Positions 28,296-61,418 of a stretch of 64,000 nt of DNA are shown piece after piece. The stretch is from Maribacter sp. HTCC2170. Lineage in GTDB: Bacteria > Bacteroidota > Bacteroidia > Flavobacteriales > Flavobacteriaceae. How positions within the stretch are numbered: the stretch's first letter is position 1; each line of letters begins with the position of its first letter. The notes beneath the pieces were generated by a model that saw only the letters and a program-made list of their open reading frames with translations, did not search any database and was not told the origin of the DNA. The stretch spans positions 431,501 to 495,500 of the forward strand of contig NC_014472.1 in NCBI RefSeq assembly GCF_000153165.2. Direction: 5' to 3'. The position numbers and the translations under genes are program-made.

Positions 28296-28344
28296 ATAAC
28301 CAATCGCTCTTATGACTGAACACCATAATTGGGATTATAAAACC

Positions 28345-29850
28345 ATGAAAATGAAAAATATAGTTTTAGTATTTCTGCTATTGTTCGGAACGGTTTTCTA
28401 TGCTCAGGATACCATTCCCAAGGCAGAAATATCAACCACCATGCAAAGTGTGAATATTAATGGCAGAACCATTTATCTAACTGCACAAGCGGGTACATTC
28501 GAAGTTCGTGATGAGAATAACAAGCCTATTGCTCTAATGGGCCATACGTACTATTCAAAAGGAAGTGATAAAAAGGGATCAAGTAATAGGTCAAGACCTA
28601 TAGTATTTGCCTATAATGGAGGGCCTGGTTCTTCTTCATTCTGGTTACATATGGGAGTTTTGGGGCCAAAACGCATTGTTGTCAACGATCCTATAACGAC
28701 ACCAGCTGCACCTTATAAAATAAGCAATAACAATTATTCGATTTTGGATGTTGCCGACTTGGTTATGATCGATCCTGTTGGGACCGGATTAAGTGTACCC
28801 GTAGGTAAATCCAAATTCAAGGATTTTTGGGGCGTTGACCAAGACATAAGAAGTCTTTCATTATTCATTACCCAATTTTTAATTGAACATAACAGAATGA
28901 ATAGCCCTAAATATCTTTTAGGGGAGAGTTATGGTACTTTTAGGAATGCAGGGGTAATGAACAAACTTCTGAATCAAGGTATTGCGATGAATGGGGTAAT
29001 TATGGTTTCAGCAGTTTTTGATTTAAGAACTTTGTTGTTTCCTCCAAATGATGACTTGCCTTACATTGTGCATTTCCCAACCTACGCTGCTACTGCCTGG
29101 TACCATAATATGGTTGAAAATAAACCAGAAGATGTTTATACTTTTTTGGACGAGATAAGGGCATTTACCCAAAATGAATATACACCTGCTTTATTCAAAG
29201 GTGATCAAATCTCGGAAACAGAAAAAAATGAAATAGCATCGAAACTAGCAGCTTACACCGGAACATCCTCATCGTATTGGCTAAAGGCAGATTTAAGAGT
29301 GACCGCAAGCGAATTTTTTGCGGAATTCTTAAGGGATAAAGGTGAAATCGTAGGTCGCTTGGATTCAAGGTTTACTGGAATAAACCAAGACCTCATATCT
29401 CAAGAAGGTAGCCATGATCCTCAAAGCTCGGCAATTTCACCGGCGTACATCACTGGCTTTTTGGACTATTTGCACAGAAACCTCAAAGTAAGTAAAAAGC
29501 TAACTTATTCAATTACAGCAGGTCGCAGAAAAGGTTTTAAATGGGATTGGTCGCATGAAGGAAATAATCGATGGGGAACCCAAGCGGCCATAAATACCAG
29601 TATTGATATGGCCCAAGCCATGTCAAGAGATCCAAATATGAAAGTATTGATTCTTAATGGTATTTATGACATTGCCACGGTATTTTATGGTGTTGAACAT
29701 AGCATCAACCATATGGGCTTGACCAAAGAAATAAAAGATAATATCATTATGGAATATTATGAAGCTGGGCATATGATGTATACACATCAACCCTCATTGG
29801 TTAAATTCAAGAAAGATGTAGCTGATTTTATTAAGACCACTTCTAAATGA
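28345..29850 (+). CDS. Exported S10-family serine carboxypeptidase-like protein
   Basis: 501 aa from the ATG at 28345, where a normal signal peptide (KMKNIVLVFLLLFGTVFYAQ) begins; the frame extends to an ATG at 28312. The oxyanion region is AYNGGPGSSSFWLHMGVLGP, the nucleophile LLGESYGTFRN (about residue 201), the aspartate in LNGIYDIATV (about 434) and the histidine in YEAGHMMYTH. S10 enzymes trim C-terminal residues from peptides at acidic pH. It ends the hydrolase run that starts at 25130 and is followed by a bidirectional terminator. Confidence 0.9.
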   Translation: MKMKNIVLVFLLLFGTVFYAQDTIPKAEISTTMQSVNINGRTIYLTAQAGTFEVRDENNKPIALMGHTYYSKGSDKKGSSNRSRPIVFAYNGGPGSSSFWLHMGVLGPKRIVVNDPITTPAAPYKISNNNYSILDVADLVMIDPVGTGLSVPVGKSKFKDFWGVDQDIRSLSLFITQFLIEHNRMNSPKYLLGESYGTFRNAGVMNKLLNQGIAMNGVIMVSAVFDLRTLLFPPNDDLPYIVHFPTYAATAWYHNMVENKPEDVYTFLDEIRAFTQNEYTPALFKGDQISETEKNEIASKLAAYTGTSSSYWLKADLRVTASEFFAEFLRDKGEIVGRLDSRFTGINQDLISQEGSHDPQSSAISPAYITGFLDYLHRNLKVSKKLTYSITAGRRKGFKWDWSHEGNNRWGTQAAINTSIDMAQAMSRDPNMKVLILNGIYDIATVFYGVEHSINHMGLTKEIKDNIIMEYYEAGHMMYTHQPSLVKFKKDVADFIKTTSK

Positions 29851-58988: not shown

Positions 58989-59495
58989 CTATATTTTATC
59001 AGGATTGCCCGATTTTCGGATTAATTGCTGTAGCACTGCCAAAACAGAAATACTATATGTGAGTGTCATTAAAACTCCAGAAAATATAACCACATACTTC
59101 ATCCATAATACACCTGTCCACAACAAATATATTCCACCGAAAGTAAGTAAAACAGATAAAAAAGGTTCTACTGTCAGGAACAGTTTAGTGTTTTTTGACA
59201 GCTTTGTCATCCACACTAAAATTCCCAATAAAAAAAAGATAAAAGACATGGAAAGAATATGGGTATGAACAATGGTCAACATTTCACGCTCACTTTTATG
59301 AAATTTCATGACCGCAGCATCTTCGTTCTCCTCATTCCCCAGATAGTTCTCTTGTATTCCTGAAGGATTTGCCGAGCTGGTTTCGTTTACAAATAAAAGG
59401 CCAGTAAAAAACCCTATTGAAAGTATAATAACAAACGAGGCAATGAATATTTTTATTTCTGTTGGAAATGTGGCAAGAAGACCGTGGAGTTTCAT
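58989..59495 (-). CDS. Four-helix membrane protein of the FMN-binding operon
   Basis: 168 aa with four transmembrane helices (about 14-36, 75-97, 105-127, 130-155). The long loop after helix 1 is acidic (GNEENEDAAVMKFHKSE) and helix 2 opens with IVHTHILSMSFIFF, with two histidines that could hold a heme or metal. I do not recognise a named family. The start codon overlaps the stop of the FMN-binding gene by one base, so the two proteins are made together. A membrane electron carrier for the flavoprotein is a plausible guess. Confidence 0.65.
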   Translation of the reverse strand: MKLHGLLATFPTEIKIFIASFVIILSIGFFTGLLFVNETSSANPSGIQENYLGNEENEDAAVMKFHKSEREMLTIVHTHILSMSFIFFLLGILVWMTKLSKNTKLFLTVEPFLSVLLTFGGIYLLWTGVLWMKYVVIFSGVLMTLTYSISVLAVLQQLIRKSGNPDKI

Positions 59496-60031
59496 TACAG
59501 GATTTGATTATTTTGTAATAAGCCAATAGTTTGCAAAAGGTCATCAATTGAAGAGGTCATTGATCTTACAGATATGGTTGCGCCCGCAATACCATCAATA
59601 TTTTTTTCATGATCAACTCTATCACTTCCTGTTTTACCCATGAACTGTTTAAGCCACCTTTTACTGCCTATTTCCCCTCCATATTCTTCGCGATATATCA
59701 GGACTTTTGAATGCACAATAGCCAGTTCATTGTCAAAAACAACCAAATAATCAAATTCAGCTGTTTTACTCCTTGCTTTATCCACGAACATGAAACCAAG
59801 GTGTTTGTCACTACTTGAAATCCTAAAAAAATTGTTTCCTTTTATTTTCATAGGAAGTTCCTCATTCAATTCATCTGAAACTTGAATTGGGCTCAAATCA
59901 AAATTCTCTATTTGAAAGGTTCTTTGAAGTTCTTTCCTAACCTTTTTCTCAACAGTTTTGGGCAATCCAAAACCTACCAGCAGAAATGAGATTGTCATCA
60001 GTAAAACGAAAAATGTCTTTGACCTTTGCAT
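59495..60031 (-). CDS. FMN-binding domain protein (covalent flavin type)
   Basis: 178 aa with a signal or membrane anchor at about 7-24. The family signature is DGIAGATISVRSMTSSI near residues 146-162: the threonine in GAT is the expected site where ApbE attaches FMN through a phosphoester. Before it is the acidic KGNNFFRISSSDKHLGFMFV strand region. Such proteins carry electrons outside the cytoplasm in Rnf, NQR and extracytosolic reductase systems. It is co-translated with the membrane protein and controlled by a dyad that also occurs twice before the porin gene. Confidence 0.85.
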   Translation of the reverse strand: MQRSKTFFVLLMTISFLLVGFGLPKTVEKKVRKELQRTFQIENFDLSPIQVSDELNEELPMKIKGNNFFRISSSDKHLGFMFVDKARSKTAEFDYLVVFDNELAIVHSKVLIYREEYGGEIGSKRWLKQFMGKTGSDRVDHEKNIDGIAGATISVRSMTSSIDDLLQTIGLLQNNQIL

Positions 60032-60044
60032 GTTGTAAATGTAT

Positions 60045-60067
60045 TAATTTAGAATGAATCTCAATAA
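60045..60067 (-). promoter_or_regulatory. Third dyad copy before the FMN-binding gene
   Basis: TAATTTAGA-N5-TCTCAATAA matches TTATTTAGA-N5-TCTAAATAA at 16 of 18 defined positions with the same 5-nt spacer as the two copies near the porin gene. It lies 14-36 nt before the FMN-binding start codon and covers the space between a TTG (60064-60062) and TACATTTA (60043-60036), a possible weak promoter. Confidence 0.6.
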
Positions 60068-60084: not shown

Positions 60085-60121
60085 AAAAAGGGTTCCCTTT
60101 TTCAAATGAAGAAGGGAACCC
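60085..60121 (-). terminator. Terminator of the porin gene
   Basis: A perfect 10-bp stem (GGGTTCCCTT/AAGGGAACCC) with a 12-nt loop, then five T on the minus strand, begins 9 nt after the porin stop. It separates the porin from the FMN-binding gene. Confidence 0.82.
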
Positions 60122-60130
60122 AACAAACAA

Positions 60131-61309
60131 CTAAAACCAAACTCCGATACCAAAATTCAACCGATCTTTGACATCGCCATTATCCAACGCATTACTTCTG
60201 AACTGGTAATCACCTTTCAAAACAACACCAGGTGCCAAATGATAAGTTAAACCAGTTGTAATATCCGTTTTATCATAGGCATTATTCTTTGTTAAAGATC
60301 CAGCGGTTGAAGCATGCGTATCATATTTTTCATAACGGGCAAATGCAAACAGTTTTTGTTGGTTTTTAGTTGGCAGAAGATTAAACGCACTTTCAACATA
60401 CCAACCTTGTAGCGCACTACCTAAATCCCTACCCGTTAAGGCATTGTAATCCTCAGTATCTGACAAAGAAGCATGTATGAACTGACCACGAGCAGTAAAT
60501 CGCTGATAAGCATAACGGGCATCTAAACCAATCATAGATATACCAATATTGGCACCATCAATTTCCTCAACCTCATCTGCCGCTTGTGTTTTACCAAAAT
60601 AAGTTGAAAGCCCTAGGCGCAAGCCAGGTATGCCATAATAATCCAATTTTGTAGATAAATTTGGGCTATCAACAGTTGATTTAATCCCCTTTTGGCGACC
60701 ACTTCGAAGGCCGTTAGATCCCTTTAAAACACCGGAAACTCCACCCTCCCCGTCTGCCAAAGTTGATTTAAAACCATTGAACAGATATGCTTGATAACCT
60801 AATGAAAGGTTGTCAAAACGACCACTGACACCGACACCAAGTTCTCTCCAGGTGGTTGGTACAATAACATTGTCCATAGCTGGTCGCTCCGTACCATTAA
60901 AAGTTGTGGGTTCATGAAACTCATTTACGATTCCCATGGGCACTAACATTAAACCACCTCTAAGGTTAACATTATTACCAACATTATAATTAACGAAAGC
61001 TTGCTCAACGAAGACTTCCTCAACATGTTCAAACTCGATTTCCGTTACGAATTGGGTTTTTTCATTGAAACGATAGCCCATTAACAACACTAATCGTTGA
61101 ACGTCCAATTCGCCATTGTCCCCTTCTGGCTGATTGTATAGCATTTCACCATACGCGCCAATGGTGACAGCTGAGGCATAATTTCCTGATAACAATCTTT
61201 GTGCGGCATTTAATTGTTTCTGAGGATTCAACATTATTGAATCTGTAACTGTTTGAGCAGATAAAAATGCTGTAAACAATACTGCAAATAATAAAATTGG
61301 ATTTTTCAT
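60131..61309 (-). CDS. Outer-membrane porin-like beta-barrel protein
   Basis: 392 aa with a signal peptide (about 1-19, ending FLSAQ). The barrel strands include YGEMLYNQPEGDNGELDVQR, FVTEIEFEHVEEVFVEQAFV and RGGLMLVPMGIVNEFHEPTT, ending with a C-terminal GIGVWF as usual for insertion. It resembles OprO/OprP-like porins of Bacteroidota and its substrate is not known. It is a single-gene unit with a strong promoter between two copies of the 23-bp dyad, so its expression is probably switched with that of the FMN-binding gene. Confidence 0.82.
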   Translation of the reverse strand: MKNPILLFAVLFTAFLSAQTVTDSIMLNPQKQLNAAQRLLSGNYASAVTIGAYGEMLYNQPEGDNGELDVQRLVLLMGYRFNEKTQFVTEIEFEHVEEVFVEQAFVNYNVGNNVNLRGGLMLVPMGIVNEFHEPTTFNGTERPAMDNVIVPTTWRELGVGVSGRFDNLSLGYQAYLFNGFKSTLADGEGGVSGVLKGSNGLRSGRQKGIKSTVDSPNLSTKLDYYGIPGLRLGLSTYFGKTQAADEVEEIDGANIGISMIGLDARYAYQRFTARGQFIHASLSDTEDYNALTGRDLGSALQGWYVESAFNLLPTKNQQKLFAFARYEKYDTHASTAGSLTKNNAYDKTDITTGLTYHLAPGVVLKGDYQFRSNALDNGDVKDRLNFGIGVWF

Positions 61310-61323
61310 TTTTAAAGTTATTC

Positions 61324-61346
61324 TTATTTAGACTTATTTTAAATAA
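61324..61346 (-). promoter_or_regulatory. Dyad copy 1 (downstream of the porin promoter)
   Basis: TTATTTAGA-N5-TTTAAATAA: one mismatch to the consensus TTATTTAGA-N5-TCTAAATAA. It lies between the predicted transcription start and the porin ATG. Confidence 0.62.
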
Positions 61347-61361
61347 ATATGTTTTGTGGAG

Positions 61362-61393
61362 CAAATTTAATACCCAATTTTGATTTGAACAAA
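61362..61393 (-). promoter_or_regulatory. Porin promoter, TTTG-N20-TAAATTTG
   Basis: On the minus strand TTTG (61393-61390), a 20-nt spacer and TAAATTTG (61369-61362) match the full Bacteroidota consensus. The leader to the ATG at 61309 is about 45 nt. Confidence 0.65.
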
Positions 61394-61395
61394 GT

Positions 61396-61418
61396 TTATT
61401 TAAACTAAATCTAAATAA
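61396..61418 (-). promoter_or_regulatory. Dyad copy 2 (upstream of the porin -33 box)
   Basis: TTATTTAAA-N5-TCTAAATAA: one mismatch to the same consensus. It abuts the -33 box of the porin promoter. Confidence 0.62.

Follow-up and report, generated by a model that had tools for sequence, protein, structure and literature searches.

Three dyads in one operon of Maribacter sp. HTCC2170 read as Fur boxes, through which Fur would shut a porin promoter and an internal promoter when iron is replete and open both when iron is scarce; we put the probability of this reading at roughly 0.85. Expression of the three genes served by these promoters (for a porin, an FMN-binding protein and a four-helix membrane protein) is probably induced by iron scarcity. 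We infer Fur binding here, the direction of control and the operon's role in iron supply. The window, i.e. the whole stretch of DNA that was analysed, is 64,000 nucleotides long, and the operon lies on its minus strand.

Architecture of the operon

The first-pass annotation had described two 23-bp dyads, each one mismatch away from a shared 9-5-9 form, that flank a full promoter, one upstream of the -33 element and one in the leader. The sequence and a pattern scan confirm the pair: TTATTTAGACTTATTTTAAATAA (61324-61346) and TTATTTAAACTAAATCTAAATAA (61396-61418) each differ at one place from TTATTTAGA-N5-TCTAAATAA. The flanking arrangement is likewise present on the minus strand, where the order is the distal box TTATTTAGATTTAGTTTAAATAA (61418-61396), 2 nt, the -33 element TTTG (61390..61393), 20 nt, the -7 element TAAATTTG (61362..61369), 15 nt, the proximal box TTATTTAAAATAAGTCTAAATAA (61346-61324) in the porin leader, and 14 nt to the porin ATG. 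We take the flavobacterial promoter form to be TTTG-N19-21-TANNTTTG. The porin gene (60131..61309; 392 aa) is followed by a terminator-like hairpin with a T run (60085..60121), which was identified by fold and is missing from the pattern-scan list because its loop exceeds the scan's loop limit. Between this hairpin and the FMN-binding gene, the pattern scan found a third Fur-type box that the earlier annotation did not contain, TTATTGAGATTCATTCTAAATTA (60045..60067), followed by a possible -7 element of an internal promoter, TACATTTA (60036..60043), which lies 5-12 nt before the ATG of the FMN-binding gene (59495..60031; 178 aa). The four-helix membrane protein (58989..59495; 168 aa) completes the set.

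What might these three proteins do? The first is an outer-membrane porin by virtue of a match to Porin_O_P (PF07396) that barely passes, at 22.4 bits against a cut-off of 20.9, and the second matches FMN_bind (PF04205) at 28 bits against a cut-off of 22. The FMN-binding protein carries a flavinylation-type GAT(I)S motif, with G150, A151 and T152 in 30/30 sequences, and the invariant GAT is presumably that of the flavinylated kind. The membrane protein has invariant His77 and His79 and matches no family above its Pfam cut-off; its AlphaFold model has a mean pLDDT of 78.6, and a Foldseek search with that model returned no match at E ≤ 0.001 and thus no known fold. The gene order porin-FMN-membrane is kept at 30/30 porin loci and at 73/80 loci chosen by the membrane gene (the best 80 of 446 relatives). 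In that same set of 80, seven loci (L277, L322, L329, L330, L336, L337 and L338) have a membrane gene with no detectable porin or FMN neighbour. Flavinylated FMN-binding proteins have been linked to iron uptake in P19/FTR1 and VIT1 clusters, as passages of PMC8238504 describe, and ApbE is reported to be raised in low iron in Riemerella anatipestifer (PMC5609570). We infer that the operon may feed FeoAB by means of a flavin ferric reductase that has a dedicated gate in the outer membrane.

Chance and conservation

In the window, the 23-mer occurs at four places with ≤3 mismatches, whereas 100 dinucleotide shuffles gave 0.21 on average and never four, and the 19-bp core occurs four times at ≤1 mismatch, compared with a mean of 0.04. 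Two of these places, 60045-60067 and 29828-29850, are additional to the pair first annotated. The dyad at 29828-29850, which has two mismatches, covers the stop codon of the gene at 28312-29850 with no gene start just downstream, and is probably there by chance. A looser pattern, ATTTADA-N5-TCTAAAT with 2 mismatches, shows no excess in the window (12 vs 9.4). Genome-wide there is no enrichment either, with 17 places for the 23-mer at ≤3 mismatches vs 19 for the reversed pattern and 9 for the core at ≤1 mismatch vs 7, and site counting across the genome was dropped as a line of support. Some of these places lack iron context, among them several in coding sequences, one before a dihydroxyacid-dehydratase-like gene, and others; two of the 17 gave no locus and stayed outside the examination. 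The concern raised by the first-pass annotation, that the dyad might lie at random genome positions, is thus borne out by the raw count and not by the best-scoring sites: six of the seven places at ≤2 mismatches are in upstream regions (the porin twice, the FMN gene, hemA/araC, a cytochrome c gene and feoA) and one is at a coding end. In other words, it is position and conservation, not the raw genome count, that tell signal from noise.

Conservation was assessed in two samples, with a box defined as the core ATTTAGA-N5-TCTAAAT with exactly 5 nt between halves and ≤2 mismatches. Of 80 family genomes, 33 gave some porin match; three with weak hits were dropped, and the 30 with strong hits make up the family set; L054, which has no upstream region, a split feoB match in G060, and the weak hemA paralogues L171 and L172 were excluded. 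Here, the box stands upstream of the porin in 29/29 genomes, feoAB in 28/29, hemA/araC in 25/28, the cytochrome c gene taken for actA in 27/29, sufA in 21/30 and sdhC in 16/30. As controls, the box precedes fur in 1/30 and dtxR in 1/30, shuffled upstream regions (20 rounds) gave a mean of 0.2-0.5 boxes per set, and 2/258 coding windows had one; wrong spacings were found 0-1 times at feoAB and hemA, with N4 in 4/29 at the porin and 5/30 at sdhC. The second sample consists of 80 named loci fetched by the membrane protein, i.e. the best 80 of 446 relatives, from Flavobacteriaceae genera or from Flavobacteriaceae, Bacteroidia and Bacteroidetes bins. Eight fell outside the box test, including seven in which the membrane gene has neither a porin nor an FMN neighbour, and 71 of the 72 testable porin promoters carry the box, with 0-5 for other spacings. 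Comparison of orthologous porin promoters, as the earlier annotation had proposed, therefore finds the dyad conserved in both samples, with the proviso that these counts are not independent events, since the two samples may share species and their rows are related by descent.

Two boxes at one promoter

Within the named loci (the best 80 of 446 relatives), the distance from the start of the distal box to TANNTTTG stays at 45-47 nt in 55 of 56 two-box loci, and box and promoter therefore shift together. Alignment of 54 loci on box and -7 shows a -33 element with an invariant G and TTT at 0.78-0.98. The proximal box, in the same best 80 of 446, starts at a variable 13-28 nt after TANNTTTG. A second box at ≤2 mismatches is present in 26/29 family loci and 50/72 named loci, vs 0 of the latter for two boxes of any other spacing; in 16/72 named loci a single box can be recognised, which visual inspection puts at the distal place in 15. 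Because the distal box is constant while the proximal one varies and is sometimes unrecognisable, we think, from these alignments, that it is the distal box that serves as main operator, the proximal box adding an extra block.

The first-pass annotation had proposed a repressor acting either by a loop or by blocking both sides of the promoter. Could Fur dimers on the two boxes form a fixed DNA loop or a phased contact? The first 28 two-box loci suggested so, as they cluster at box-to-box spacings of 72-73 (18 loci) and 60-62 (5 loci), one turn apart. The larger set of 56 two-box named loci, a count that allows ≤3 mismatches, where N4 also gives single boxes in 34/72, fills the gap: spacings are 59-62 in 5, 65-67 in 12 and 69-74 in 39, without clear helical steps among these best 80 of 446 relatives. 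The helical-phase model was not upheld by these 56 loci, and with one-box loci also counting against it, we regard a fixed loop or phased contact as quite unlikely. A rigid loop is argued against by a proximal box that wanders and is sometimes unrecognisable while the distal place is fixed. Blocking of both sides of the promoter, on the other hand, fits the layout.

At the FMN-binding gene, a box (≤2 mismatches) occupies the interval before the gene in 51/72 named loci, and TANNTTT starts 22 nt after the start of the third box in 47/52 (both within the best 80 of 446 relatives). From this constant distance, the third box likely covers an internal promoter, that of the FMN-binding gene.

Which regulator reads the dyads?

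The first-pass annotation had likened the half-sites to those of metal-dependent regulators (Fur or DtxR class); the suggested kind of regulator stands, with Fur now favoured over DtxR. The core of the dyads is the same as the published R. anatipestifer Fur box in letters and in its 5-nt centre; the 19-bp box predicted in that species is ATTTAGAATTATTCTAAAT, and EMSA showed binding of the purified R. anatipestifer protein to four promoters (PMC5609570). Additionally, rhuB, with ATTTAGAATTATCCTAAAT, was bound by purified Fur plus Mn (PMC10986502), and the Fur literature on this species also includes PMC11967795. A Fur-family protein is present in 30/30 porin genomes, with one copy in Maribacter sp. 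HTCC2170. The dyads thus have the core letters and 5-nt centre of a Fur box and recur both at the promoters of orthologues and before established iron genes, in genomes with a Fur gene.

The R. anatipestifer record is not uniform. PMC10434265 places a Fur box at feoAB and reports increased expression of these genes in low iron and, by 4-5 fold, in a fur mutant; contrary to this, feoAB is lower, not higher, in the fur mutant of PMC5609570, where most iron responses persist without fur (e.g. hmuR, 7.89 in wild type and 8.44 in the mutant). Only 5/11 of the boxes printed there fit our core at ≤2 mismatches, and the box of sprT, an EMSA-positive promoter, has 5 mismatches. An E. coli-type box is quoted for the same strain (PMC7976709). 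Also counting against the Fur reading is MliR, a MerR-like iron regulator known in a marine relative (PMC9478572).

Might a DtxR/MntR-family repressor read the dyads instead? The family is present in 30/30 porin genomes, the one member here has a FeoA domain, and the half-sites are similar (TTTAGA/TCTAAA). The dtxR promoter, however, has a dyad of its own, TTTTAGR-N4-YCTAAAA, in 14/30 genomes at ≤2 mismatches and 19/30 at ≤3, compared with N5 in 1/30, and the N5 dyads do not share its centre spacing. Conversely, N4 is found at feoAB in 1/29, hemA in 0/28 and the porin in 4/29, vs 28, 25 and 29 for N5. Two spacing classes therefore exist side by side, and the N4 class at dtxR, together with the published Fur EMSA on N5 sites, favours Fur for N5. 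The 4-nt-spaced class is likely the DtxR/MntR box; in this genome, TTTAGA-N4-TCTAAA lies in the dtxR promoter, in the gap that separates dtxR from a TonB-dependent receptor gene (L016:1700-1760 in genome C1). DtxR as reader of the dyads was rejected on the spacing difference, and we consider it very unlikely. An Irr-like Fur-family protein, binding without ligand and responding to haem, is a further candidate: the ICE of alphaproteobacteria, reportedly TTTAGAA-N3-TTCTAAA (letters not found in the Irr literature examined), has the same geometry as the dyads, and haem, Fe-S and respiratory genes figure in both target sets. According to a review, ICE position decides whether Irr represses or activates (PMC7762939). 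Set against this candidate, the sole Fur-family protein found here has its best solved matches among proteins that bear the name Ferric uptake regulation protein, and agrees with them at the aligned H, E and HDH positions, and R. anatipestifer Fur requires Mn for EMSA (PMC10986502). We judge an Irr-like reader highly improbable and return to Fur.

Other targets and a possible position code

Beyond the operon, boxes at ≤2 mismatches fall into fixed places, a constancy that represents conservation and not independent tests, since orthologous promoters share ancestry: the box starts 10-15 nt after the start of TANNTTTG at feoAB (25/28) and 13-15 nt after it at sufA (21/21), i.e. on the start site, and 64-65 nt before TANNTTTG at actA (25/27) and 64-66 nt before it at sdhC (14/16). 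In Maribacter sp. HTCC2170, a cytochrome c gene that is probably actA (L006:1501-1523) and sdhC (L014:1501-1523) each have a box ~65 nt ahead of the -7 element, an activator-like place. The sdhC box begins TTGATTAAAATCAA, which we take to resemble an FNR site. The best box of the genome (L003:1501-1523; C1:1434501-1434523) is between hemA and a divergent AraC-family gene, and is nearer araC: the araC TANNTTTG is 36-37 nt before this box in 14/25 genomes, and that of hemA is 150-152 nt after the box start in 21/25.

Reported expression in relatives agrees in sign with such a code. Under low iron, R. anatipestifer expresses more feoAB and suf but less succinate dehydrogenase and less of a quinone-binding subunit of a cytochrome c oxidoreductase (PMC5609570); in Elizabethkingia anophelis, more iron goes with higher quinol:cytochrome c oxidoreductase and succinate dehydrogenase (PMC7221216). 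Against an account by Fur alone, the R. anatipestifer changes persist in the fur mutant, some of them stronger (sdh b558, -1.01 in wild type and -2.47 in the mutant; PMC5609570), and there must therefore be a second iron input, at least in R. anatipestifer. The box positions suggest that Fur may repress the feoAB/suf group and might activate the actA/sdhC group. A joint reading, which we offer tentatively and at somewhat less than even odds, is that a start-site box would mean off, for feoAB, suf and the porin, FMN-binding and membrane genes, and a box ~65 nt before -7 on, for alternative complex III and succinate dehydrogenase, two large users of iron in respiration, with the porin operon as outer-membrane gate and flavin ferric reductase feeding FeoAB.

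Outlook and relation to known systems

In the mechanism that we propose, when iron is plentiful, a metal-loaded Fur dimer would occupy the distal box, in contact with the -33 element, and another the proximal box in the leader, keeping the porin promoter shut, while Fur on the third box would shut the internal promoter that serves the FMN-binding gene and the gene for the four-helix membrane protein. Iron scarcity would release Fur, and the porin, FMN-binding and membrane proteins would be made. The proposal links to iron a conserved and as yet uncharacterised operon for outer-membrane and flavin proteins in marine flavobacteria, and it maps the promoters at which the family's Fur would repress and those at which it might activate. 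The N5 vs N4 spacing would let Fur and DtxR targets be separated in any family genome. A literature search, with most subscription papers outside it, found no description of the operon as Fur-controlled or of the two-box bracket.

Among known systems, the R. anatipestifer Fur box has the same 19-bp core and 5-nt centre, and feoAB and suf are iron-responsive there; the passages on Fur in that literature describe no porin-FMN-membrane operon, two-box bracket, actA box or sdhC box. DtxR/MntR boxes have the half-site letters TTTAG/CTAAA in common with the dyads but a centre of 4 nt, not 5, at the dtxR promoters here. The Irr/ICE system is alike in dyad geometry and in its haem, Fe-S and respiratory targets, and differs in that the regulator here resembles an ordinary Fur and belongs to another phylum. 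The clusters of PMC8238504 carry P19/FTR1 or VIT1, and the word porin is absent from the main text of that paper; like the operon described here, they combine an FMN_bind protein outside the cytosol with a link to iron.
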